Assembly (NCBI RefSeq): GCF_003052295.1
Contig: NZ_QBLC01000005.1
Location: 124,001 to 188,000 of the forward strand
Direction of reading: 5' to 3'
Length of the DNA: 64,000 nt
Source of the DNA: Trichococcus paludicola
GTDB lineage: Bacteria > Bacillota > Bacilli > Lactobacillales > Aerococcaceae
Shown: piece by piece, positions 15,652-26,347 of the stretch
How positions within the stretch are numbered: the stretch's first letter is position 1
How the letters are laid out: the number at the start of each line of letters is the position of its first letter
The notes under the pieces: generated by a model
Seen by the model: only the letters and a program-made list of their open reading frames with translations
Told to the model about the DNA's origin: nothing
Databases searched by the model: none
Translations under genes and position numbers: made by a program

Positions 15652-17316
15652 ATGAGAAGAGAAAAATGGTTGTTTTCAACAACATTGGCTATAAGTTTGA
15701 TGCTGGCAGGTTGCTCAACAGGAGGGGCTGAAAGTGCAGATAGTGAGGCTGCAAGTAACTCCAATGCGAAAGCGGAAGTGGAACAGGTCATCACCGTGAC
15801 GAACAGTGGTGAATTGGGAACTTTGGATAACGCCTTAGCTCCTGATATATCGAGTATGGTCATCATCGGGAACGCTATTGAAGGCTTGTATCGTATCGGC
15901 GACGATGGCGCATGGGAACTCGGGGTTGCTGCAGAGGAACCAAGCGTCAGTGAGGACGGTCTGGAATATACCTTTAAGATCAAGGAGGATGCGAACTGGT
16001 CCAACGGAGATCCGGTTACGGCGGAAGATTTTGTCTATACCTATCAAAAAATTGTGGATGCGAACACCGGCTCTCCCAACGTGAACAAGTTTTATGTCCT
16101 GAAGAATGCCCAAGCAATCAATGGCGGTACAGTGGATAAAACGGAACTAGGTGTGGAAGCCATCGATGAAAAAACAGTCAAATTTACTTTGGCGTATCCG
16201 ACCACTTATTTCAAGGAACTCTTAGGGATGGTCGCTTACCTACCGCAGAACCACACAGTGGCCACGGAATGGGGCAGCGCGTACGGAATGAACAGTGAGA
16301 ATACCGTCTACAACGGGCCTTTCATCGTGGAAGGCTGGGAAGGCACAGACCTGAACTGGTCCTTTGTTCCGAATGAAGCATATTGGGATGTTGAAAATGT
16401 GCAACTCGACCAGATCAATTGGGAAGTCACGAAGGATGTGGCGACGAACGTCAATCTTTTTGAATCAGGCGATGTCCAATTTACCCAAATCGGCAACCCG
16501 CATATAGAACAATATGAAGGCTCCGATGCTTTGGTCACTGAACCTAAAGCTTTGGTCGGCTACCTGTGGTTCAATCAAGATCGAACTAGCACGGGAAATG
16601 TTCATTTGAGAAAAGCCTTGTCACAGTCTTTCGACAAGGAGGCCTATGTTGAAACTGTCCTGAATGACGGATCTGTTCCTTTAAACGGCCACGTTCCTTC
16701 AAACTATGCCTATAATCCGGAGACGGAAGAAGATTTCCGTACAGAAAATGGCGACTTGAGCGTGACTGATATTGAAGCTGCTCAAGCAGAATGGGAACTT
16801 GCAAAAACTGAATTGGGCATTGAAACGTTGGAAATTGAGCTGCTGACATCTGACGCTGATACATCCAAAACGACTTCTGAATTCCTGCAGGCTGAATGGC
16901 AAAAAAATCTGCCTGGACTGACTGTCACCATCCGAAATGTTCCTTTGAAGAGTCGTCTGGAAGCTACCGCCAATGGTGAATACGACATTGCCTACGGTAC
17001 CTCGACCCCGAGCTATGCGGATCCGATCGCCTTCTTGGATATGTACGAATCAACGAATGCTATGAACAGCTCCCATTACGACAATGAGGAATATGATGCG
17101 TTGCTTGCCTCTACAAGAAGCACCTATGCAAACGATCCGGAAAAACGTTGGGAAGCTTTGCTGGCAGCAGAGAAATTATTATTGACCGAAGATGCCGTAG
17201 CCGCTCCGATTAACCAAGGAGCCAACGCAAACTTGGTTGACCCTTCATTGAAGGATGTCCAAATACAACCCGTCGGAATTCCTATGTACTTCCGTACCGC
17301 CTATGTCGCGGAATGA
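15652..17316 (+). CDS. Oligopeptide-binding lipoprotein, OppA-like (copy 1)
   Basis: 554-residue SBP_bac_5 protein. Lipoprotein signal with lipobox LMLAGCSTG, then a low-complexity Ser/Ala/Glu linker and the binding domain with family motifs WSNGDPVTAEDFVYTYQKIV, ENTVYNGPF and FRTAYVAE at the end. It should sit on the outer face of the membrane and capture peptides for an Opp-type importer, but no oppBCDF genes are nearby, so it must use a transporter encoded elsewhere. AGGAGG precedes the ATG. It has its own terminator and is a close paralogue of 24680-26347, by eye around three quarters identical or more over the mature part. Its DNA is more AT-rich than that of the second copy. Confidence 0.88.
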   Translation: MRREKWLFSTTLAISLMLAGCSTGGAESADSEAASNSNAKAEVEQVITVTNSGELGTLDNALAPDISSMVIIGNAIEGLYRIGDDGAWELGVAAEEPSVSEDGLEYTFKIKEDANWSNGDPVTAEDFVYTYQKIVDANTGSPNVNKFYVLKNAQAINGGTVDKTELGVEAIDEKTVKFTLAYPTTYFKELLGMVAYLPQNHTVATEWGSAYGMNSENTVYNGPFIVEGWEGTDLNWSFVPNEAYWDVENVQLDQINWEVTKDVATNVNLFESGDVQFTQIGNPHIEQYEGSDALVTEPKALVGYLWFNQDRTSTGNVHLRKALSQSFDKEAYVETVLNDGSVPLNGHVPSNYAYNPETEEDFRTENGDLSVTDIEAAQAEWELAKTELGIETLEIELLTSDADTSKTTSEFLQAEWQKNLPGLTVTIRNVPLKSRLEATANGEYDIAYGTSTPSYADPIAFLDMYESTNAMNSSHYDNEEYDALLASTRSTYANDPEKRWEALLAAEKLLLTEDAVAAPINQGANANLVDPSLKDVQIQPVGIPMYFRTAYVAE

Positions 17317-17589: not shown

Positions 17590-17882
17590 TACAGAAAAAA
17601 GCAAAGAAGAGGAAAGTACTTGTTGGATAGTCCTTCAGAGAGCTCTTGGTTGGTGAGAAAGAGCGGACGGCAGCACAGGAAAAATGGCCTCGGAGTTGAT
17701 GCGCTGACAGGGAGTTTCCTTCAGGCGCGTCCGGACGCCCCCGTTAGACAGGCAGCAGTATTGAGGATGATGAATCCCTCTGTACTGATTGAGATGGCAA
17801 TCGCAAGATTGTCATGAAGCAAGGTGGTAACGCGATCTAACCGTCGTCCTTTCTGGAATCGATCCAGAGGGGCGATTTTTTA
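17590..17882 (+). ncRNA. T-box riboswitch, specifier probably ATG (methionine)
   Basis: A tRNA-sensing leader. Stem I: GAGG (17609-17612), AGTA loop-E element (17615-17618), distal AGAGAG (17637-17642), and terminal loop GGTTGGTGAGA closed by GCTCTT/AAGAGC. The returning strand ends in GAAAAATGG and CCTC (17688-17691), which pairs with GAGG. With one purine between codon and helix the specifier reads ATG (17684-17686, Met). One base earlier gives AAT (Asn), unlikely because T-box specifiers normally end in C where the code allows. The T-box core GGTGGTAACGCG is at 17823-17834, followed by a terminator stem (about 17845-17873) and TTTTTT. Low charged tRNA would allow read-through into the gene at 17927. 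Confidence 0.85.
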
Positions 17883-17926
17883 TTACACTTTCTATTACAC
17901 TTTATTAAACTTTAGGAGGAATATAC

Positions 17927-18970
17927 ATGACAGACAATAACAGAAGAAAATTGATTTTTGACGCTTTCGACAACAAAGAAACGGAGCGTGTGCCGGTTGG
18001 CTTTTGGTTTCACTTTGTTTTCGGTGATGATCAATTCCGTGGTTTGGAGGACAGATCGATTTTGGATCGAGTGATTGACGGGCATACGGATTTCTACGAC
18101 GCATTCAACCCGGATTTCGTGAAAATCATGAGCGATGGCTTCTTCGGCCATCCCAGCCTGTTGGAAAAAACGATCGAGCATGCGGATGACCTGTACAACG
18201 TCAAAGCTGTTGGGCCGGAACATCCGTGGATCACGGAGCAGGTCAAGACGGTCAAGCAAATCAAGGAATCCTTCAACGGTGAAATCGCAACCTTCTATAA
18301 TATCTTTTCGCCAGCGAACTATATCCGGATCGCCTTCGAAGCGTGGGATAAGGATCCCGAAAAATTCACCCGTTTCTTTGAGACGGATCCCGGCGCACTC
18401 GCATATGCGGCGAACGAAATCGCCAAGGACGTGGCGCTGCTAACGCAAAAAATCATCGAAGAAGCAGGCGCGGACGGCATCTACCTGAGCGTTCAGAATG
18501 TCCAAACCAGCGCGGCCACGAAAGAAGCTTACCAGACCTACATCGCGCCGAGTGAATTGGACGTGTTGGCTGCGGCAAATGCAGTCAGCGACTACAACAT
18601 CCTGCATATCTGCGGCTATGAGCATAACCAAAACAACTTGGCGTACTACCAGGACTATGATGCAAAAGCATATAACTGGGCGGTCCATACCGAAAAAATC
18701 AGCCTGAAGGAAGGCAAAGACTTCTTCGGCAACAAAGCGGTGATCGGCGGTTTCGACAATAACGCAGGCACGTTGCTGGATGCAGGGAAAGAGGCGGACA
18801 TCGCCCAATACACAGCCGACCTCATCCAAGAAATCGGCGACACGGGCGTCATCATCGGAGCGGACTGCACCGTCAATCCCGAGATTGAACTGGATCGTTT
18901 GACATTGGTCCGGGATACAGCTGCGGGTGTGTCGGGCAAGAATCGCAAACAAGCGACCCCCTCGGCATAA
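17927..18970 (+). CDS. UroD-fold methyltransferase-like protein with HxC...C zinc motif
   Basis: 347 residues of the uroporphyrinogen decarboxylase/methylcobamide methyltransferase superfamily (PF01208). It is not a heme-pathway UroD: the usual N-terminal RQAGR-type substrate motif is absent. It has His227 and Cys229 in NILHICGYEHN and Cys314 in GADCTV, the HxC...C zinc-thiolate ligands of MtaA/MtbA-type enzymes that methylate a thiol. No corrinoid protein or activase gene is in the window, so the methyl donor is unknown. It is the first gene behind the T-box leader; AGGAGG precedes the ATG. With a Met T-box, a role in methyl transfer to homocysteine or in recycling an S-methyl compound is a reasonable guess, but only that. 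Confidence 0.75.
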   Translation: MTDNNRRKLIFDAFDNKETERVPVGFWFHFVFGDDQFRGLEDRSILDRVIDGHTDFYDAFNPDFVKIMSDGFFGHPSLLEKTIEHADDLYNVKAVGPEHPWITEQVKTVKQIKESFNGEIATFYNIFSPANYIRIAFEAWDKDPEKFTRFFETDPGALAYAANEIAKDVALLTQKIIEEAGADGIYLSVQNVQTSAATKEAYQTYIAPSELDVLAAANAVSDYNILHICGYEHNQNNLAYYQDYDAKAYNWAVHTEKISLKEGKDFFGNKAVIGGFDNNAGTLLDAGKEADIAQYTADLIQEIGDTGVIIGADCTVNPEIELDRLTLVRDTAAGVSGKNRKQATPSA

Positions 18971-19055
18971 TCGAATTGAACAAAGCAGGCGCCGGTGTTC
19001 GGCACAGGCGGTCAACCCTGATAGACAATCGGTATTATTTTTAACCGAACAGCCG

Positions 19056-19064
19056 TGATAGAAT
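19056..19064 (+). promoter_or_regulatory. Possible extended -10 promoter before the oxidoreductase gene
   Basis: TGATAGAAT is an extended -10 element about 60 bases before the oxidoreductase start; no convincing -35 is visible. The 156-base gap 18971-19126 shows no clear terminator, so read-through from the T-box transcript is also likely. Confidence 0.3.
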
Positions 19065-19126
19065 CAAGCACATAGCTAAAACAGCCGTCATCCTAAAAAG
19101 CGGAAGGCAAAGAAAGGAGGGGTCTC

Positions 19127-20185
19127 ATGGTCGGGATTGTCATCATCGGTTGCGGGGACGTTTCGAAACAGAGGCACGCCCCTCTAAGCCACCAAAATGA
19201 AAAAGTCGATTTGATTGGATTCTATAACCGCACCATCGCCAAAGCAGAAGCTTTCCAAAAGAGGTACGGCGGGAAAGTCTACCAGAACCTGGATGAAATC
19301 TGGGAAGACGGAACAGTCGATGCCGTCATCGTCGCGACGAACGAACAGTCGCACAGCCCCATCACCATCGCCGCCCTGGAAGCAGGCAAGCATGTGCTTT
19401 GCGAAAAGCCGATGGCGGATTCGGCGGCCGAGGCAGAACGAATGCAGCAGGCAGCCGAGAAAACGGGTAAAAAGTTGATGATCATCCATAACCAACGGCT
19501 TTATCCCGCGCATCAGCTGCTGAAAAAATTACTGGCGGAAGGGACGCTCGGGAAGATCCATGCCTACCGGACGACCTTGGCCAACCAAGGCCAGGAAAAT
19601 GACGGCTGGGGTACGGCATTCCCTGATTTCTACGACCGCATCGGCCATACGAACGGGGCTTTGGCTCAAGTAGGCGTTCACCGCATCGACTTGTTGAACT
19701 ACTTGTTCAGTGAAGATCCCGTCATCGCAGTATTGGCGCACACCATGACACAAGGCAAACAGTTGTCTGACGGCAGCCCGGTCCCATATGAGGATTATGC
19801 GGTGCTGCAATTACAACATCGCTCGGGGATACAGGGAACGCTGCTGACCCACTGGTTCGATTATTCGAACGATAGGCAGACCGTCATCTACGGCGAAAAT
19901 GCCACAGTCGCGACGTATGCGGACGGGCATCCGGTCGCACTCTACCGGAAGAACGGGGAAAAGACCTATCTGGATGATCTGGCGCAAGGCGATTCTTATA
20001 CGGAACCGTTGACTCCAATCGTCGACAAGTTTATCGAAAGCATCGAACAGGATACCGTTCCCTTCGTCACAGCGGAGCAGGGGATAACCGCATTGCGCAT
20101 TCTTGCCGCCGCCTATCGGTCACAGGAAACGCAGACTTGGACACCAATCGAGCAGGAGGACGCACACTATGACAGAAAAATTTAA
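19127..20185 (+). CDS. Gfo/Idh/MocA family NAD(P)-dependent oxidoreductase
   Basis: 352 residues. The N-terminal Rossmann domain starts VGIVIIGCGDVSKQRHAP (a GxGxxx-type dinucleotide site) and continues with the family hallmark AGKHVLCEKPMA near residue 95. The C-terminal domain carries GALAQVGVHRIDLLNYLF, whose Asp/His belong to the active site. Relatives oxidise or reduce sugars, inositols and other cyclic alcohols; the substrate here is unknown. AAGGAGG lies 7 bases upstream. The 3' end overlaps the next UroD-like gene by 17 bases, which ties it functionally to that cluster. Confidence 0.85.
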   Translation: MVGIVIIGCGDVSKQRHAPLSHQNEKVDLIGFYNRTIAKAEAFQKRYGGKVYQNLDEIWEDGTVDAVIVATNEQSHSPITIAALEAGKHVLCEKPMADSAAEAERMQQAAEKTGKKLMIIHNQRLYPAHQLLKKLLAEGTLGKIHAYRTTLANQGQENDGWGTAFPDFYDRIGHTNGALAQVGVHRIDLLNYLFSEDPVIAVLAHTMTQGKQLSDGSPVPYEDYAVLQLQHRSGIQGTLLTHWFDYSNDRQTVIYGENATVATYADGHPVALYRKNGEKTYLDDLAQGDSYTEPLTPIVDKFIESIEQDTVPFVTAEQGITALRILAAAYRSQETQTWTPIEQEDAHYDRKI

Positions 20186-21272
20186 TGGAAGAAAACGAAT
20201 AGAAGCAGCTCTCGCAAAGCAACCTTTGGACAGACCGGCCATTTCCGGTTGGCGTCACATGCCATTAGTCGATCGGGACGTCGAGGCGTTCACCGCAGCG
20301 ACGATCGCATTCACCGATGAGAACGATTGGGATCTGATCAAGCTGATGTCGCAAGGGCAATTCTTCGCTGAAGCCTATGGAGCTCCTATCGAATTCTCGA
20401 CAGATGCGAAGGAATGGGCAGGCAAAATCCTGGAGTATCCGATCCGGAGCGCGGAAGATTTGACGCGCTTGAAGCCGTTACGAGCCGATAACCCTGTTCT
20501 CCAGCGCGAAGCCGCTTTTGCCAAGAAAATCGTGGATCATTATCCAGGCGAAAAAGTGGTCGTCGGCACCGTCTTCTCGCCTTTGTCATGGGTGAAGCAA
20601 TTTGCGCCAGGCAACGATTCGATCGCGCATATCGTCGACGGACCGGAAGAAAGCCCAATTGCGGATTTCCTGGAAAACCATCGTGAGGAATTGAAGGCGG
20701 CGCTCGATGTGCTGCATGCCTCGAATAAAGTGTTTGTGGACGAATTGATCGCGGCCGGCGTGGACGGTTTCTTCATCGCCGAGCAGTACAGCCAACGCGG
20801 CGATATTTCCGAAGCGGACTACGCAGCTTTCGCCAAACCTTATACGGATGACCTTTTGGCTTACATCAACGACCGCACCTGGTTCAACATCCTGCATGCA
20901 CATGGGCATGTCGATCTGGCTGTGGAACGTTTTATCGATTACGATGTCCAGGCAATCAACTGGGAAGACGGCAGCGATCACGCGGAAGATCCGACCCGCT
21001 TGAGTTTCCGTAAGCTGCGGGCACTGACGGACAAACTGCTGATCGGCGGCATCTCGCCAAAAACCGATCTGACGTTTTCGGATAATGCTCAGGAAGTCGA
21101 GGATTTGCTGGTCGATCGATTGGCGGATGTCCTCGCCGAAACCGGCGATACGGGCATTGTATTTGCACCGGGCTGCGCAATCTCATTGGAAGCCAACCCG
21201 GATTTTTATCAACGCATCAACGCCGCCGCCCAAAAAGTGAGCACGACGACCATAAACACAACGAACCATTAA
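20169..21272 (+). CDS. Second UroD-fold methyltransferase-like protein, variant HxH...C site
   Basis: 367 residues, same PF01208 superfamily as 17927-18970 but diverged. At the zinc position it has ILHAHGHVD (His243, His245, His247) instead of HIC, and Cys336 in APGCAI, so one thiolate ligand appears replaced by histidine. The start ATG at 20169 has CAGGAGG upstream and lies inside the oxidoreductase gene; the longer frame from 20103 has no ribosome site. Two unequal paralogues in one operon suggest either a heteromer or two steps of a methyl transfer. It could also have lost catalysis. 29 bases separate it from the transporter genes. Confidence 0.72.
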   Translation: MTEKFNGRKRIEAALAKQPLDRPAISGWRHMPLVDRDVEAFTAATIAFTDENDWDLIKLMSQGQFFAEAYGAPIEFSTDAKEWAGKILEYPIRSAEDLTRLKPLRADNPVLQREAAFAKKIVDHYPGEKVVVGTVFSPLSWVKQFAPGNDSIAHIVDGPEESPIADFLENHREELKAALDVLHASNKVFVDELIAAGVDGFFIAEQYSQRGDISEADYAAFAKPYTDDLLAYINDRTWFNILHAHGHVDLAVERFIDYDVQAINWEDGSDHAEDPTRLSFRKLRALTDKLLIGGISPKTDLTFSDNAQEVEDLLVDRLADVLAETGDTGIVFAPGCAISLEANPDFYQRINAAAQKVSTTTINTTNH

Positions 21273-21301
21273 AATAATTGATAACACAGGAGGAGTAGAA
21301 T

Positions 21302-22174
21302 ATGAAGAGAAGAAGATTATTGACGACAGTAAGTTTATTGGGGGCAGCATTTTTGGCCGGATGCGGTCAGACGGATGCGGAAACGACGAGTGAGGCAACG
21401 AGCAGTTCCGCAGCTGAGACGGTGGAAGTGACAACAGTTACAGTCGCGCATACGCAAAGCTCCGCGCCGATGAATTATGTGGATGAGAACGGCGAATCCA
21501 CCGGCTATGAAGTCAGCGTTCTGAAAGCCATCGATGAATTGTTGCCGCAATATGAATTCGAATACGTGCCGACTTCCGACGAAGACCTGCTGATCGGGAT
21601 CGAATCAGGCAAGTATGATGTCGGAACAAAAGGCGCTTGGTATACAGAGGAACGCGCGCAAAAGTTCATCTTCCCTGAAAATTATATCGGTGCCAGCAGC
21701 ATCGGCGTGCTGATCCGTTCGGAAGATGCCGAAGAAATTACCGACTTGGAGTCGTTTGCGGCTGCAGGCAAGAGCCTGGTTCCGATTTCGCCAAATAATG
21801 CACAGTACAACGTGATCGAGGACTTCAATGCGGAACATCCGGATACACCAATCGAACTGACTGCGGCTGATGTATTCGAAATCGCCGACGCCTACACCTG
21901 GTTGTTGGAAGGACGCTATGATGGCTACTTCGCCGTTAAGACCGCTTATGAAGTGAACGTGCTGGCAGAAGGCGCGCCGTACAGCCAATACAGGGATGAC
22001 TTCGACTACTTCGTCTACGAAGCGCTGCCGACTTGGCCATTGTTCAACAAAGAACAGCAGGAACTGGCCGACGCCTATGACGAAGCCTTCCTGCAATTGG
22101 AAGAAGACGGCACCATTGATGATTTGATGATCGAGTTCCTTGGCGAAAATACATTCCAATACGTGAAAGAATAA
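21302..22174 (+). CDS. Amino-acid ABC importer, substrate-binding lipoprotein (SBP_bac_3; TcyJ/K-like)
   Basis: 290 residues. Lipobox FLAGCGQ, a Thr/Ser/Glu-rich linker, then the SBP_bac_3 fold of polar-amino-acid binding proteins (ENGESTGYEVSVLKAIDE, GKYDVGTKGAWYTEERAQKF, LEEDGTIDDLMIEFLGE). It would capture an amino acid outside the membrane for the two permeases that follow. The gene set of one such lipoprotein, two permeases of about 236-265 residues and an ATPase resembles the Bacillus TcyJKLMN (Ytm) importers for cystine and related sulfur compounds; this similarity is from memory of the family and not measured. Strong GGAGGAG ribosome site. Confidence 0.82.
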   Translation: MKRRRLLTTVSLLGAAFLAGCGQTDAETTSEATSSSAAETVEVTTVTVAHTQSSAPMNYVDENGESTGYEVSVLKAIDELLPQYEFEYVPTSDEDLLIGIESGKYDVGTKGAWYTEERAQKFIFPENYIGASSIGVLIRSEDAEEITDLESFAAAGKSLVPISPNNAQYNVIEDFNAEHPDTPIELTAADVFEIADAYTWLLEGRYDGYFAVKTAYEVNVLAEGAPYSQYRDDFDYFVYEALPTWPLFNKEQQELADAYDEAFLQLEEDGTIDDLMIEFLGENTFQYVKE

Positions 22175-22223
22175 CAACAAGAGTGCCGACGGATGACAAC
22201 ACAGACAAGGAGGAGGATAAAAG

Positions 22224-22934
22224 ATGAATCGTCCATTCGATATCGCTTATATTTGGAAGGCCGTGCCGGAAATTTTATCCGGTCTGGGCGTAACGCTGCA
22301 ATTTTTGATCGGTACAATCGTGATCGGGGGTCTTTTGGGATTCCTGGCTACCTGGGCAAGGCTCAGCGGTCCGAAATGGCTGCGGGCAATCGTCCATAGC
22401 TACATCTGGATCATCCGCTGCACGCCTTCGATCGTCATGATGTTCTTGGTCTTTTACGGCTTGCCGGAGGTGCTGTTGGGCACCTTCGACATCGACATCA
22501 ACAGCTGGAATCGCCTCAACTTTGTCGTCGTTGCCTTGTCGCTCCTGTTTTCAGCGCCTTGTTCGGAAACCATGCGGTCGGCTTACTTGGCCGTCGCAAA
22601 AGTGCAGCGCGAGGCTGCCCTCAGCATCGGCCTCACCGAAGCACAAGCATTCAGAAGGATCGTTTTACCGCAGGCTCTTGTGAGTGCATTGCCGAATCTC
22701 GGCAACTCGTTCATCTTGCTGATGAAGGAGGGGGCTTTGGCCTACACGATTGGCATCATCGACATCATGGGCAAAGGCCAACTGATCATCGCGCGCAATC
22801 TCGGCGGTTATTCGATCGAGACGTACATCGCGTTGGCGGGCATCTATTGGCTGCTGACGCTGGCGATCGAGAAGGCGTTCAAGCTGGCGGAAGACAAATT
22901 ATCGGCAGGAAAACAACCGCTGCGGGCGGCATAG
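22224..22934 (+). CDS. Amino-acid ABC importer permease 1 (HisM/TcyL type)
   Basis: 236 residues with about five membrane segments and the BPD_transp_1 coupling motif in CSETMRSAYLAVAKVQREAA followed by LSIGLTEAQAFRRIVLPQAL, the EAA loop that docks on the ATPase. It starts with a strong AAGGAGGAGG site and is 18 bases from the next permease gene. Both permeases being present indicates a heterodimeric membrane domain. Confidence 0.88.
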   Translation: MNRPFDIAYIWKAVPEILSGLGVTLQFLIGTIVIGGLLGFLATWARLSGPKWLRAIVHSYIWIIRCTPSIVMMFLVFYGLPEVLLGTFDIDINSWNRLNFVVVALSLLFSAPCSETMRSAYLAVAKVQREAALSIGLTEAQAFRRIVLPQALVSALPNLGNSFILLMKEGALAYTIGIIDIMGKGQLIIARNLGGYSIETYIALAGIYWLLTLAIEKAFKLAEDKLSAGKQPLRAA

Positions 22935-22952
22935 GAGAGAGGAGCGAGACGC

Positions 22953-23750
22953 ATGACCATTGATTTACCTTATGTGCAGGAAATTCTGATCCTTGTGTTG
23001 AAGGGCATCCCGACAACGCTGCGCTTGACCTTTATCCCCTTGCTCATCGCGCTGCCGTTTGCTTTCCTGATTGCCGTGGCGAGACAGCGGAACATCAAAA
23101 TACTGGCCCGCGTTTCCCAAATTTATGTATCCTTCATCAGGGGAACGCCCTTGATCGTCCAGATTCTGGTGATGTACAGCCTGTTCCCGAGCCTGCTGAA
23201 CGTGCTCGTGAAAAGTTTGGGGCTCGATTACGACGTCTTCGGCATCAATCCGATTTATTACGCCTACATCGTTTTCACTTTGAATACGATCGCGATCCTG
23301 TCGGAGGTTTTCCGTTCGGCCCTCGAAACGGTCGACAAACGCCAACTTGAGGCGGCCCTTTCGATCGGGCTGCTGCCGGTCCAGGCCTATAGTCGCATCG
23401 TGATTCCGCAAGCGTTGGTGGCGGCAACGCCGAACTTGTGCAACAGCACCGTCAATCTGCTGAAATCGACCTCGCTTGCCTTTCTGATGTCGGTACAGGA
23501 CATCACGGCCATCGCCAAGACGGAAGCGGCATTCGGCTACAACTATCTGGAGTCATACCTAGTGATTTTCATCGTATACATCGTCCTCTGCTCGCTCGTT
23601 CAGGTATTCTTCCAACTGCTGGAGCAACGCTTGTCCCTCTACAAGCGCGGACGTAAAATGACGGTAAAATCAGAAAATGATAACCAACCGGAGTATTTTG
23701 AAGGCGAACGAAAGGAGCGATACCATGCTGGCATTGAAGAATATTCATAA
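22953..23750 (+). CDS. Amino-acid ABC importer permease 2 (HisQ/TcyM type)
   Basis: 265 residues. Five predicted membrane segments and an EAA loop ([20 protein letters not shown] then [19 protein letters not shown]). The C-terminus is unusually long and charged for this family ([20 protein letters not shown] and beyond) and runs past the start of the ATPase gene, overlapping it by 26 bases. It pairs with permease 1. Confidence 0.88.
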
Positions 23751-24465
23751 GAAATTCGGCGAAACGGAAGTGCTGAAAGGCGTGGACATCGAAGTCGAAA
23801 AAGGCGATATCGTCGTGATCCTGGGCCCAAGCGGTTCGGGCAAGACGACCTTGTTGCGCTGCATCAATTTCCTGGAGCGCGCCGACGAAGGCTCTCTGCA
23901 TTTCGATGAAATCCAGACTGAATTTTCGAAAGCAAGCAAAAAAGACATCAACGCTGTAAGGAAAAAATCGGCATTCGTTTTCCAAAACTATGGCCTGTTC
24001 GACAACAAAACGGTGTTGGACAATGTCACCGAAGGCTTGATCGTCGGGCGGAAAGTGCCGAAGAAGGAAGCCATCGAAACCGCCATCCGCGCTTTGGAAA
24101 AAGTCGGCCTGAGCGATCGCTTGGCTTACTACCCTTCGCAGTTGTCCGGTGGCCAGCAGCAGCGGGTGGGCATCGCCCGCGCCTTGGCGGTGAATCCGGA
24201 CGTCATCCTGTTCGACGAACCCACCTCGGCTTTGGATCCGGAATTGGTCGGTGAAGTGCTGCAGGTCATCCGCAAACTCGCCGAGGAAGGCACCACCATG
24301 GTCGTCGTCACGCATGAGATGACCTTCGCCAAAGAAGTGGCCAACCGCGTCATTTTCATGGACCAGGGCGTCATCGTAGAAGAAGGCACACCGGAAGATA
24401 TTTTTGGAAATCCGAAAGAAGCCCGCACCAGAGGGTTCCTGCAGCGGATCCTGGCCCGGGTTTGA
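23725..24465 (+). CDS. Amino-acid ABC importer ATPase (GlnQ/TcyN type)
   Basis: 246 residues with Walker [10 protein letters not shown] near residue 36, signature [20 protein letters not shown], Walker [15 protein letters not shown] and switch His in VVVTHEM. It energises the importer. ATG 23725 is preceded by AAAGGAG (23711-23717); the longer frame from 23677 only reads back through permease 2. A terminator follows, closing the T-box-controlled cluster. Confidence 0.92.
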
Positions 24466-24489: not shown

Positions 24490-24524
24490 TCGTCCTGCCG
24501 TTCACAACGGGGGACGGGTTTTTT
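24490..24524 (+). terminator. Terminator of the ABC importer cluster
   Basis: CGTCC..CCGTT pairs with AACGG..GGACG (24491-24516), then GGTTTTTT. Confidence 0.8.
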
Positions 24525-24605
24525 GTGTTTCGTGATGTATCGGTTGTGCCTATCACACGTGTTCGGAAATCGGAATTATCCTAAAGGCTGCTGCAATGGT
24601 AAGCT

Positions 24606-24621
24606 ACTTGTACATACATAT
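24606..24621 (+). promoter_or_regulatory. Possible AraR-like box upstream of oppA copy 2
   Basis: ACTTGTACATACATAT matches 13 of 16 positions of the Bacillus AraR operator ATTTGTACGTACAAAT and shares the ACATAT end with the boxes at araR and araB. It lies about 60 bases before the start codon at 24680. It could be chance. Confidence 0.35.
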
Positions 24622-24679
24622 CAAAGAAATGAATTCCAACATAGGGATAAAAATAATGAAAATCGTCAGGAGGAACAGT

Positions 24680-26347
24680 ATGTTAAAAGATAAATGGGTC
24701 ATCACTACAACGCTAGCAATCAGTTTGGTGTTGGCGGGCTGTTCGACTGGTGATGCCGCAAATACAGAAAGCAGCGAAGGCACGGCTGCTTCATCAACCG
24801 CCGCCGCAGCCGAGCAAGTCATCACAATCACGAATACAGGGGAGTTGGCCTCCTTGGACAACGCCGTTTCGGCCGACAACGCCAGCTTGGTGGTGCTCGA
24901 GAACGCAAATGAAGGTCTTTACCGCGTCGGTGACGAGGGCGTGTTTGAACTGGGTATCGCAGCCGAAGAGCCTGTCGTCAGCGAGGACGGACTGGAGTAT
25001 ACCTTCAAAATCAGGGAAGATGCGAACTGGTCGAACGGTGATCCGGTGACCGCGGAAGATTTTGTCTATACCTACCAGAAAATTGTGGATCCGGCGACGG
25101 CTTCCCCGAACATCAATAAACTGTATCCGTTGAAGAATGCGGAAGCGATCAACAATGGGGAGTTGGACAAAGCGGAACTGGGTGTCGAAGCGATCGACGA
25201 GAAGACCGTGAAGTTCACTTTGGGCAATCCTACCGCTTACTTCAAGGACCTGTTGGGGACGTCTTCCTACTTGCCGCAGAACCACCAAGTGGCGAGCGAA
25301 TTGGGCGGCGCCTACGGAACGAACAGTGAAAACACTGTCTACAATGGACCTTTCGTCGTGGAAGGTTGGGAAGGCACGGATCTGAACTGGTCGATGGTTC
25401 CGAACGAAGCCTATTGGGATGCGGAGAACGTCCAATTGGATCAGATCAATTGGGAAGTCAGCAAGGAAATTGCCACGAACATCAATCTGTTCGAGTCCGG
25501 TGAGGTCCAGTTGACGCAAATCAGCAATCCTTACATCGAACAGTATGCAGGCTCCGACGCTTTGGTGACGGAACCGAAAGCTCTGTCCGGCTATGTCTGG
25601 TTCAACCAAGGCCGCACGAGCACCGCCAATGTCCATCTGCGGAAAGCCTTGTCCTATTCGTTCGATAAGGAAGCTTATGTGGATACCGTTTTGAATGACG
25701 GTTCCGTTCCTTCGAATGGTTTTGTGCCTTCCAATTACGCCTTCAATCCGGAAACCGATGAAGATTTCCGCGAAGAGAGCGGCGATTTGGCCGTCTACGA
25801 TGTGGAAACGGCACAAGCCGAGTGGGAAACCGCGAAGGAAGAACTGGGCATCGAAACGCTGTCGCTCGAATTGCTGACTTCCGATACGGAAACATCCAAG
25901 ACAACGGCCGAATTCCTGCAATCGCAATGGCAAGAGAACCTGCCGGGCTTGACGATCACGATCCGCAATGTGCCTTTGAAGAGCCGGATGGAATCGACCA
26001 CGAACGGTGACTATGATATCGCCTACGGAACGTATACGCCGAGTTATGCCGATCCGATCGCCTTTCTGGAGATGTATGAATCCACAAGCGGCCTGAACAG
26101 TTCCCGCTTTGCGGATGAAGGTTACGATGCTTTGCTGGACGACACCAGAAGCGCGTATGCCAACGATCCGGAAAGCCGTTGGGAAGCGTTATTGGCGGCC
26201 GAAGAAACACTGATAGCCGAGAACTCCGTGAATGCGCCGATTTATCAAGGAGCCAATGCCAATCTGATCGATCCGTCCTTGAAGGATGTGCAGATCCAAC
26301 CGGTGGGTGCAGCGATGTACTTCCGCACGGCCTACGTGGAAGAGTAA
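24680..26347 (+). CDS. Oligopeptide-binding lipoprotein, OppA-like (copy 2)
   Basis: 555 residues, paralogue of 15652-17316 over its full length, including the signal TTLAISLVLAGCSTG. The start was set to ATG 24680, nine bases after CAGGAGG, which also aligns the N-terminus with copy 1; the longer frame from 24596 is not supported. SBP_bac_5 motifs are intact (WSNGDPVTAEDFVYTYQKIV, ENTVYNGPF). The linker after the lipid cysteine differs most between the copies. No opp permease or ATPase genes are near. A peptidase gene follows, which suggests peptide uptake and hydrolysis as a unit. The two copies flank the T-box cluster as direct repeats about 9 kb apart. Confidence 0.88.
   Translation: MLKDKWVITTTLAISLVLAGCSTGDAANTESSEGTAASSTAAAAEQVITITNTGELASLDNAVSADNASLVVLENANEGLYRVGDEGVFELGIAAEEPVVSEDGLEYTFKIREDANWSNGDPVTAEDFVYTYQKIVDPATASPNINKLYPLKNAEAINNGELDKAELGVEAIDEKTVKFTLGNPTAYFKDLLGTSSYLPQNHQVASELGGAYGTNSENTVYNGPFVVEGWEGTDLNWSMVPNEAYWDAENVQLDQINWEVSKEIATNINLFESGEVQLTQISNPYIEQYAGSDALVTEPKALSGYVWFNQGRTSTANVHLRKALSYSFDKEAYVDTVLNDGSVPSNGFVPSNYAFNPETDEDFREESGDLAVYDVETAQAEWETAKEELGIETLSLELLTSDTETSKTTAEFLQSQWQENLPGLTITIRNVPLKSRMESTTNGDYDIAYGTYTPSYADPIAFLEMYESTSGLNSSRFADEGYDALLDDTRSAYANDPESRWEALLAAEETLIAENSVNAPIYQGANANLIDPSLKDVQIQPVGAAMYFRTAYVEE

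Follow-up and report, generated by a model that had tools for sequence, protein, structure and literature searches.

A methionine T-box operon of Trichococcus paludicola linking UroD-fold proteins with an amino-acid importer, and its possible role in methionine salvage

The presence of uroporphyrinogen decarboxylase (UroD)-fold proteins beside an amino-acid importer, behind a leader that senses tRNA-Met, raises the question of what task such an operon serves. The cluster analysed lies at 17590-24465 of a 64,000-nucleotide stretch of Trichococcus paludicola (the window, to which the coordinates refer unless a locus or genome is named), whose own assembly is rated 63% complete. The operon consists of a T-box leader, a UroD-fold protein (U1), a Gfo/Idh/MocA-type oxidoreductase, a second UroD-type protein (U2) and four genes of an ATP-binding cassette (ABC) importer (Table 1). 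The analysis confirmed the cluster as noticed in the original prediction and partly supported its interpretation as a salvage route by methyl transfer. The reading preferred here, tentative and judged somewhat short of probable, is that of a methionine-starvation operon in which a methylated amino acid of the sulfur or onium type would enter through the importer, and its methyl group would be passed by U1 to homocysteine on zinc.

The leader was searched with the Rfam T-box model (RF00230). It scored 117.3 bits at 17595-17854, compared to a gathering score of 93, and the full T-box leader that had been claimed was thus recovered. Its terminator hairpin (-22.6 kcal/mol, z -2.8) was equalled by 1 of 200 shuffles. 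The register of the specifier was fixed on Rfam alignments of the other T-boxes of the same genome (10 of 19 shown), and it yielded CTC, GTA, TAC, CGC and TGG upstream of leuS, valS, tyrS, argS and trpD, respectively (NCBIfam names). In the same register the hisS leader has GAC, which encodes Asp; hisS is often the first gene of a hisS-aspS operon. In the calibrated register the U1 leader reads GGAAAAATGGCCTCGGAG, with ATG (Met) at 17684-17686. The predicted Met specifier therefore stands, and the competing Asn specifier (AAT) was excluded by the register of the five named genes. The metY leader of the same genome also carries ATG in the Rfam alignment, and the T-boxes of two short MetE-like genes read ATG by eye. 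As the leaders of U1, metY and both MetE-like genes are all ATG, the U1 operon belongs to a Met T-box regulon together with known methionine genes. Judged from the leader sequence, uncharged tRNA-Met should let transcription pass the T-box.

The Pfam URO-D matches of U1 (50 bits) and U2 (77.4 bits) lie above the cut-off of 23.9 and place both proteins in the UroD superfamily; the two are homologous (hhalign probability 99.5). A zinc motif HxC...C in both proteins was not supported: it is present in U1, as H227-I-C229...C314, and U2 has HAH...C, of the type HxH...C. Every one of the 36 aligned U1-type proteins retains HxC...C, and every one of the 20 aligned U2-type proteins HxH...C; these numbers count the rows left after an open reading frame filter, which dropped U1 of L002, L005 and L090 as well as U2 of L005. 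A third kind, HTC...C, was seen in two proteins of this alignment. Zinc would be bound at the U1 motif. The oxidoreductase gene was correctly described as overlapping the second UroD-fold gene, as U2 starts at the ATG at 20169 and shares 17 bases with the MocA-type gene. The structural model of U1 is confident (predicted local distance difference test, pLDDT, 92.1) and matched uroporphyrinogen decarboxylase with Z 29.2, the methyltransferase 4ay7 with Z 27.4 and MetE-type barrels with Z 17 to 21. The U2 model is of low confidence (pLDDT 36), and the assignment of a UroD-type barrel by structure covers U1 only. Among NCBIfam models, those of the MtaA/CmuA type ranked first for 10 of 10 UroD proteins scanned (U1, U2 and eight relatives), all far below the cut-off; U1 reached 32.2 of the 235.4 bits needed for these methyltransferases. 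The sole match of U1 to PDB sequences was 4ay7 at E 0.034, and none was found for U2.

The importer is complete, with an SBP_bac_3 binding protein, two permeases and an ATPase, and is of the polar amino-acid class. Cystine-type NCBIfam models scored highest for the permeases and the ATPase, below cut-off. For the binding protein the Lys/Arg/Orn model came first (46 bits) and the cystine model next (42.7 of 312 bits), again below cut-off, and no importer protein reached the equivalog cut-off of the cystine system (ATPase 406, permeases 300, binding protein 312). The nearest solved chains of the binding protein by sequence are 4eq9, which we take to be GshT, YtmK (2o1m) and 4c0r. An Arg and an Asp line up with all three in the alignments shown, and these presumably hold the alpha-carboxylate and the alpha-amino group in this class of binding proteins. 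A role of the importer in methionine supply is well supported.

The neighbourhood of U1 was read in 32 loci outside the window, drawn from three locus sets (15 + 13 + 4). A complete importer adjoins U1 in 30 of them, the other two (L007 and L015) being cut by contig ends. The proposed linkage of UroD-fold gene and importer thus recurs in other genera, and U1 plus importer is the core module. The MocA-type gene and U2 each adjoin U1 in all 10 Trichococcus loci; neither gene is beside U1 in the other 22 loci. Two copies of U1 are present in six loci (L078, L079, L081, L084, L085 and L094), and in L010, from Lachnospiraceae, a metY-like gene 61% identical to the MetY of this genome stands directly before the operon. 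Of the 13 genomes of the genus searched, 12 have U1, the exception being an assembly rated 51% complete. The order sample yielded 43 genomes with U1 out of 395, and the class sample 15 out of 398, of which 13 had already been counted in the order. Locus L002, from a record titled Sedimentibacter sp. SX930, has a cluster 93-99% identical to that of Trichococcus. It coincides in coordinates with G008, which the genome search placed in Trichococcus.

Control by Met T-boxes was followed across these operons. An Rfam T-box precedes U1 in 10 of 10 Trichococcus loci scanned (window included), all with specifier ATG. Of the families labelled f9, f4 and f3, which appear to be Lactobacillaceae, Streptococcaceae and Enterococcaceae, the first offered five loci. 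The T-box scored above gathering in two and below in two (76.7 and 81.0 bits), and none was found in the fifth down to E 0.001. All four T-boxes read ATG, in agreement with the expectation of Met T-boxes on such operons elsewhere; the sub-gathering pair has the ATPase first and U1 last, unlike the above-gathering pair. The leader of L090 was read by pattern only. The contrary outcome named in the original prediction, UroD-fold genes that never accompany Met T-boxes or the importer in other genomes, was not what these neighbourhoods revealed, 30 of 32 loci having the importer and some operons a Met T-box.

A divergent LysR-type gene lies beside U1 in five Streptococcus-type loci (L011, L012, L013, L014 and L080), and another sits 3' of the operon in L082. 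The LysR-type proteins are 41-98% identical among the five compared (L014 left out), and no relative was found in ten further loci searched. A scan of L009-L015 with a MET-box consensus found none near U1; its one hit (L012:561, three mismatches) lies some 9 kb upstream of U1. The scan of 15 leaders for the CmbR operator, using the consensus given in the available part of PMC5131005, yielded clear matches only in L011 and L081, with three mismatches each; 1 and 2 of 200 mononucleotide shuffles, respectively, were equally good.

The sister protein was analysed in the same manner. In the order sample, 45 of 395 genomes matched U2 at E 1e-15, many through U1-type proteins, and 11 loci around the better U2-like matches were read, nine of which have HxH...C. 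A full importer adjoins the UroD gene in six of these HxH loci (L105-L110, one permease being split in L108), a partial one in L111 and L115, and none in L112. The Trichococcus genome G005 has, just upstream of its U1 operon, an extra importer operon of the HxH kind (L089:4148-8707), whose last gene encodes a U2-like UroD protein and which carries a Met T-box of its own (103.6 bits). In G360 a pattern search located a leader that appears to read ATG and scores below the Rfam gathering threshold; no T-box was detected before the UroD operon in the other seven loci scanned (L105 and L111 not among them). The third arrangement, in L113:5325-8805 and L114:4921-8407, brings the HTC...C UroD protein together with an NlpA-type binding protein, a pyrroline-5-carboxylate-reductase-like gene and a glyoxalase-like gene. 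The NlpA family includes MetQ. Genes of the latter two kinds also stand beside the U1 operon of G515, where a S-adenosylmethionine (SAM) riboswitch before an M20-type peptidase gene was noticed about 6 kb away (L092:15898-17461).

In the proposed course of events, tRNA-Met that is uncharged would cause readthrough of the T-box and transcription of the operon, and the ABC importer would take up a small methyl-bearing alpha-amino acid of the sulfur or onium type. U1, with its predicted fold and putative zinc, would hold homocysteine as zinc thiolate and accept the methyl directly, giving methionine; folate would not be needed for such a reaction, nor would a corrinoid protein. The first candidate donors are S-methylmethionine and S-methylcysteine; the latter would suit a thiol-yielding reaction as well. 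In Trichococcus the MocA-type protein and U2 may add a step, e.g. a second transfer or the oxidation of the demethylated product, which is speculative. Import of a methylated amino acid followed by zinc-thiolate transfer would be the simplest reading that uses every part. The bolder claim is that U1 represents a new class of methionine synthase in the UroD superfamily, using neither folate nor B12 and supplied with methyl groups by an imported methylated amino acid, and that the HxH sister, in one case under a Cys T-box, does related chemistry on the remaining thiol. Under this claim, which is considered unlikely, imported S-methylcysteine with homocysteine would yield cysteine and methionine together, and Met control in one branch and Cys control in another would be explained.

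No corrinoid-protein gene was detected among the proteins of the operon by the Pfam and NCBIfam scan, as had been stated before, and the statement was strengthened by the genomes: in 12 of the 17 U1 genomes tested the B12-binding domain had no match. U1 should therefore work without a corrinoid protein. The matches in the other five (four Trichococcus and G326) lie in frames of 797-831 residues, and the Trichococcus frame also holds PF02574. A corrinoid partner elsewhere in the genome is possible in Trichococcus and was rejected as a general solution, given these 12 genomes. The distribution of MetE was compared with that of U1 in the order sample. The MetE N-terminal domain occurs in 43 of 43 U1 genomes compared to 189 of 395 overall (Fisher p 1e-15, not corrected for kinship) and, counted by genus, in 8 of 8 against 41 of 80 (p 0.003). 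The metE loss that had been expected to accompany U1 is thus contradicted, as all 43 genomes keep MetE. This retention speaks against U1 as a replacement of MetE; it fits homocysteine as the acceptor, and fits equally any role in sulfur amino-acid supply.

Several results weigh against the transfer of a methyl group to homocysteine by U1. Full-length MetE is present in all 17 U1 genomes tested, and Trichococcus also encodes a MetH-like protein and a PF02574 protein of MmuM size. The top structural Z of U1 is that to uroporphyrinogen decarboxylase, and its profile gave no match to the catalytic half of MetE, for which the alignment was shallow. No RNA leader was found by Rfam before the operon at gathering in L009-L015, G102, G326, G728 and G515, nor down to E 0.001 in G374, and the T-box core was absent, by pattern check only, from six further loci taken as Streptococcus. 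The importer plus HxH-type UroD operon of G146 (L107:4383-8875) has a T-box of 103.7 bits whose specifier is TGC (Cys), and the importer of Streptococcus mutans SMU.932-936 is termed a potential cystine importer in the available text of PMC5361627.

Because one HxH-type operon reads Cys, thiol release is a serious rival. An S-substituted cysteine or homocysteine would be imported, and the UroD-fold zinc enzyme would break or exchange the C-S bond and free the thiol, the alkyl group being incidental. Along with the Cys T-box of G146, the cystine-like permeases and ATPase, the closeness of the binding protein to 4eq9, YtmK and 4c0r among solved chains and the metY-like neighbour in L010 favour this explanation, which is nevertheless judged somewhat unlikely, since every readable U1-type leader is Met and none Cys, and methyltransferase models rank first for the UroD proteins. 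The operon may also serve mainly for import of methionine or a derivative, with the UroD-fold proteins as accessories (e.g. in zinc binding or scavenging) and no methyl transfer. Met T-boxes are often upstream of plain methionine importers in the available part of PMC6004538, and in L113 and L114 a UroD protein is encoded together with an NlpA-type binding protein; however, in 30 of 32 loci the importer is accompanied by the UroD gene, and the putative zinc residues are kept in all 36 aligned proteins, which makes this explanation quite unlikely.

The remaining two explanations concern the chemistry of the UroD-fold proteins. U1 might be supplied by the MetH-like protein that Trichococcus encodes at another site, accepting the methyl group of its corrinoid domain, and the one B12-binding match in the Trichococcus genomes tested (frame of about 800 residues) suits this idea; it is very improbable in view of the 12 U1 genomes that have no such match. 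A role of U1 or U2 as porphyrin or other decarboxylase would agree with the highest structural Z of U1 and with the weak match of the hemE NCBIfam model to U2 (E 2e-5). A porphyrin decarboxylase was thought unlikely despite this Z, as the hemE model does not match U1 at E 0.01 and HxC...C or HxH...C is conserved, and with tRNA-Met control added, decarboxylation in general is rated as extremely improbable.

The preferred reading, methyl transfer to homocysteine by U1, was compared with known systems. Thiol methyltransferases of the UroD fold have been described together with corrinoid partners. The methylcobamide:thiol methyltransferases MtaA, MtbA and CmuA resemble U1 in the UroD fold, in HxC...C, in the top-scoring curated models and in the structural match to 4ay7. 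They differ in that the scores here are far below the curated cut-offs, U1 is associated with an amino-acid importer and with Met T-boxes, and their corrinoid partner has no counterpart in the operon nor a B12-binding match in 12 of 17 genomes. MmuM and BHMT transfer a nutrient methyl to homocysteine on zinc without cobalamin, the same kind of reaction as proposed for U1; they belong to another protein family (PF02574), also encoded in Trichococcus. The core methionine synthases MesA-MesD belong to the MetE branch. Like the proposed U1, they are short, zinc-dependent members of the wider superfamily and methylate homocysteine in a folate-independent manner, according to the available sections of PMC7857596 and PMC7005905. 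They use methylcobalamin, presumably corrinoid proteins, or, for MesD, a partner protein and oxygen (same sections), and U1 differs from them in that its profile did not match the catalytic half of MetE. Kountz and Balskus, in the part of PMC10418091 at hand, proposed that corrinoid-bearing clusters of the UroD superfamily serve in the metabolism of methyl-selenium or methyl-sulfur compounds and in the salvage of methionine. Their type I mlp gene clusters likewise encode UroD-superfamily proteins, some with methionine transporters nearby, and include a corrinoid protein and an activase, neither of which is in this operon.

The genes SMU.932-936 of S. mutans are probably the same module. They may be the operon named tcyDEFGH. 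SMU.932 is followed by four importer genes, as in the U1 module, and its C-terminus, IAWVKEAVTL, shares with the S. equinus U1 proteins the stretch IAWVKEAV near the end, this short stretch being the basis of the comparison. SMU.932 is listed as a hypothetical protein (PMC10782952), and the available passages of PMC10782952, PMC5361627 and PMC10900908 assign no function to SMU.932-936. For Lactobacillus paracasei six Met T-boxes are listed, none before a UroD gene, in the available part of PMC6004538. No account of the function of the module was found in the open-licence literature searched, which is a part of the literature. The U1-importer core, recurring unexplained in streptococci and other bacteria, may be an undescribed route to methionine from a scavenged nutrient. 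The UroD-fold family persists here in bacteria in which no B12-binding protein was detected, and several lineages tie the U1 family to sulfur amino-acid supply through T-boxes or neighbours. If homocysteine is indeed methylated from a diet- or host-derived compound, an additional methionine route has been missed by annotation, and hypothetical proteins such as SMU.932 would gain a testable role.

Table 1. Coordinates of the operon features in the window and of the two related T-boxes
Feature	Position	Strand	Evidence
T-box leader, Met class, specifier ATG 17684-17686	17595..17854	+	RF00230 117.3 bits and calibrated register
Leader terminator hairpin and T-run	17848..17880	+	hairpin 17848-17872; folding and pattern scan
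U1, UroD-fold, putative zinc motif HxC...C (H227, C229, C314)	17927..18970	+	PF01208 50 bits; model pLDDT 92.1; residues invariant across 13 aligned rows
Gfo/Idh/MocA-type oxidoreductase	19127..20185	+	PF01408 114.6 bits
U2, UroD-type, HxH...C	20169..21272	+	PF01208 77.4 bits; ATG start at 20169 checked
Importer binding protein, SBP family 3 (SBP_bac_3)	21302..22174	+	PF00497 85.8 bits; PDB sequence matches
Importer permease 1	22224..22934	+	PF00528; top NCBIfam model cystine permease, 142.9 of 300 bits
Importer permease 2	22953..23750	+	PF00528; top NCBIfam model cystine permease, 116.2 of 300 bits
Importer ATPase (chosen start; frame open from 23677)	23725..24465	+	PF00005 121.5 bits; TcyN model 325.7 of 406 bits
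Terminator-like site 3' of last importer gene	24498..24525	+	pattern match only
T-boxes of two short MetE-like genes (L031, L034)	G000 C1:276953-277224, C1:554904-555170		specifier ATG by eye

Patterns like that of the terminator-like site at 24498 were no commoner in the region than in shuffles (10 compared to 8.7). Elsewhere in the same genome a T-box with a specifier that is apparently TGC (Cys) was seen before a dicarboxylate/amino-acid symporter-type gene (L028, G000 C5:32266-32502). The operon is flanked on either side by genes for SBP_bac_5 (OppA-type) binding proteins, at 15652-17316 and 24596-26347 of the window.

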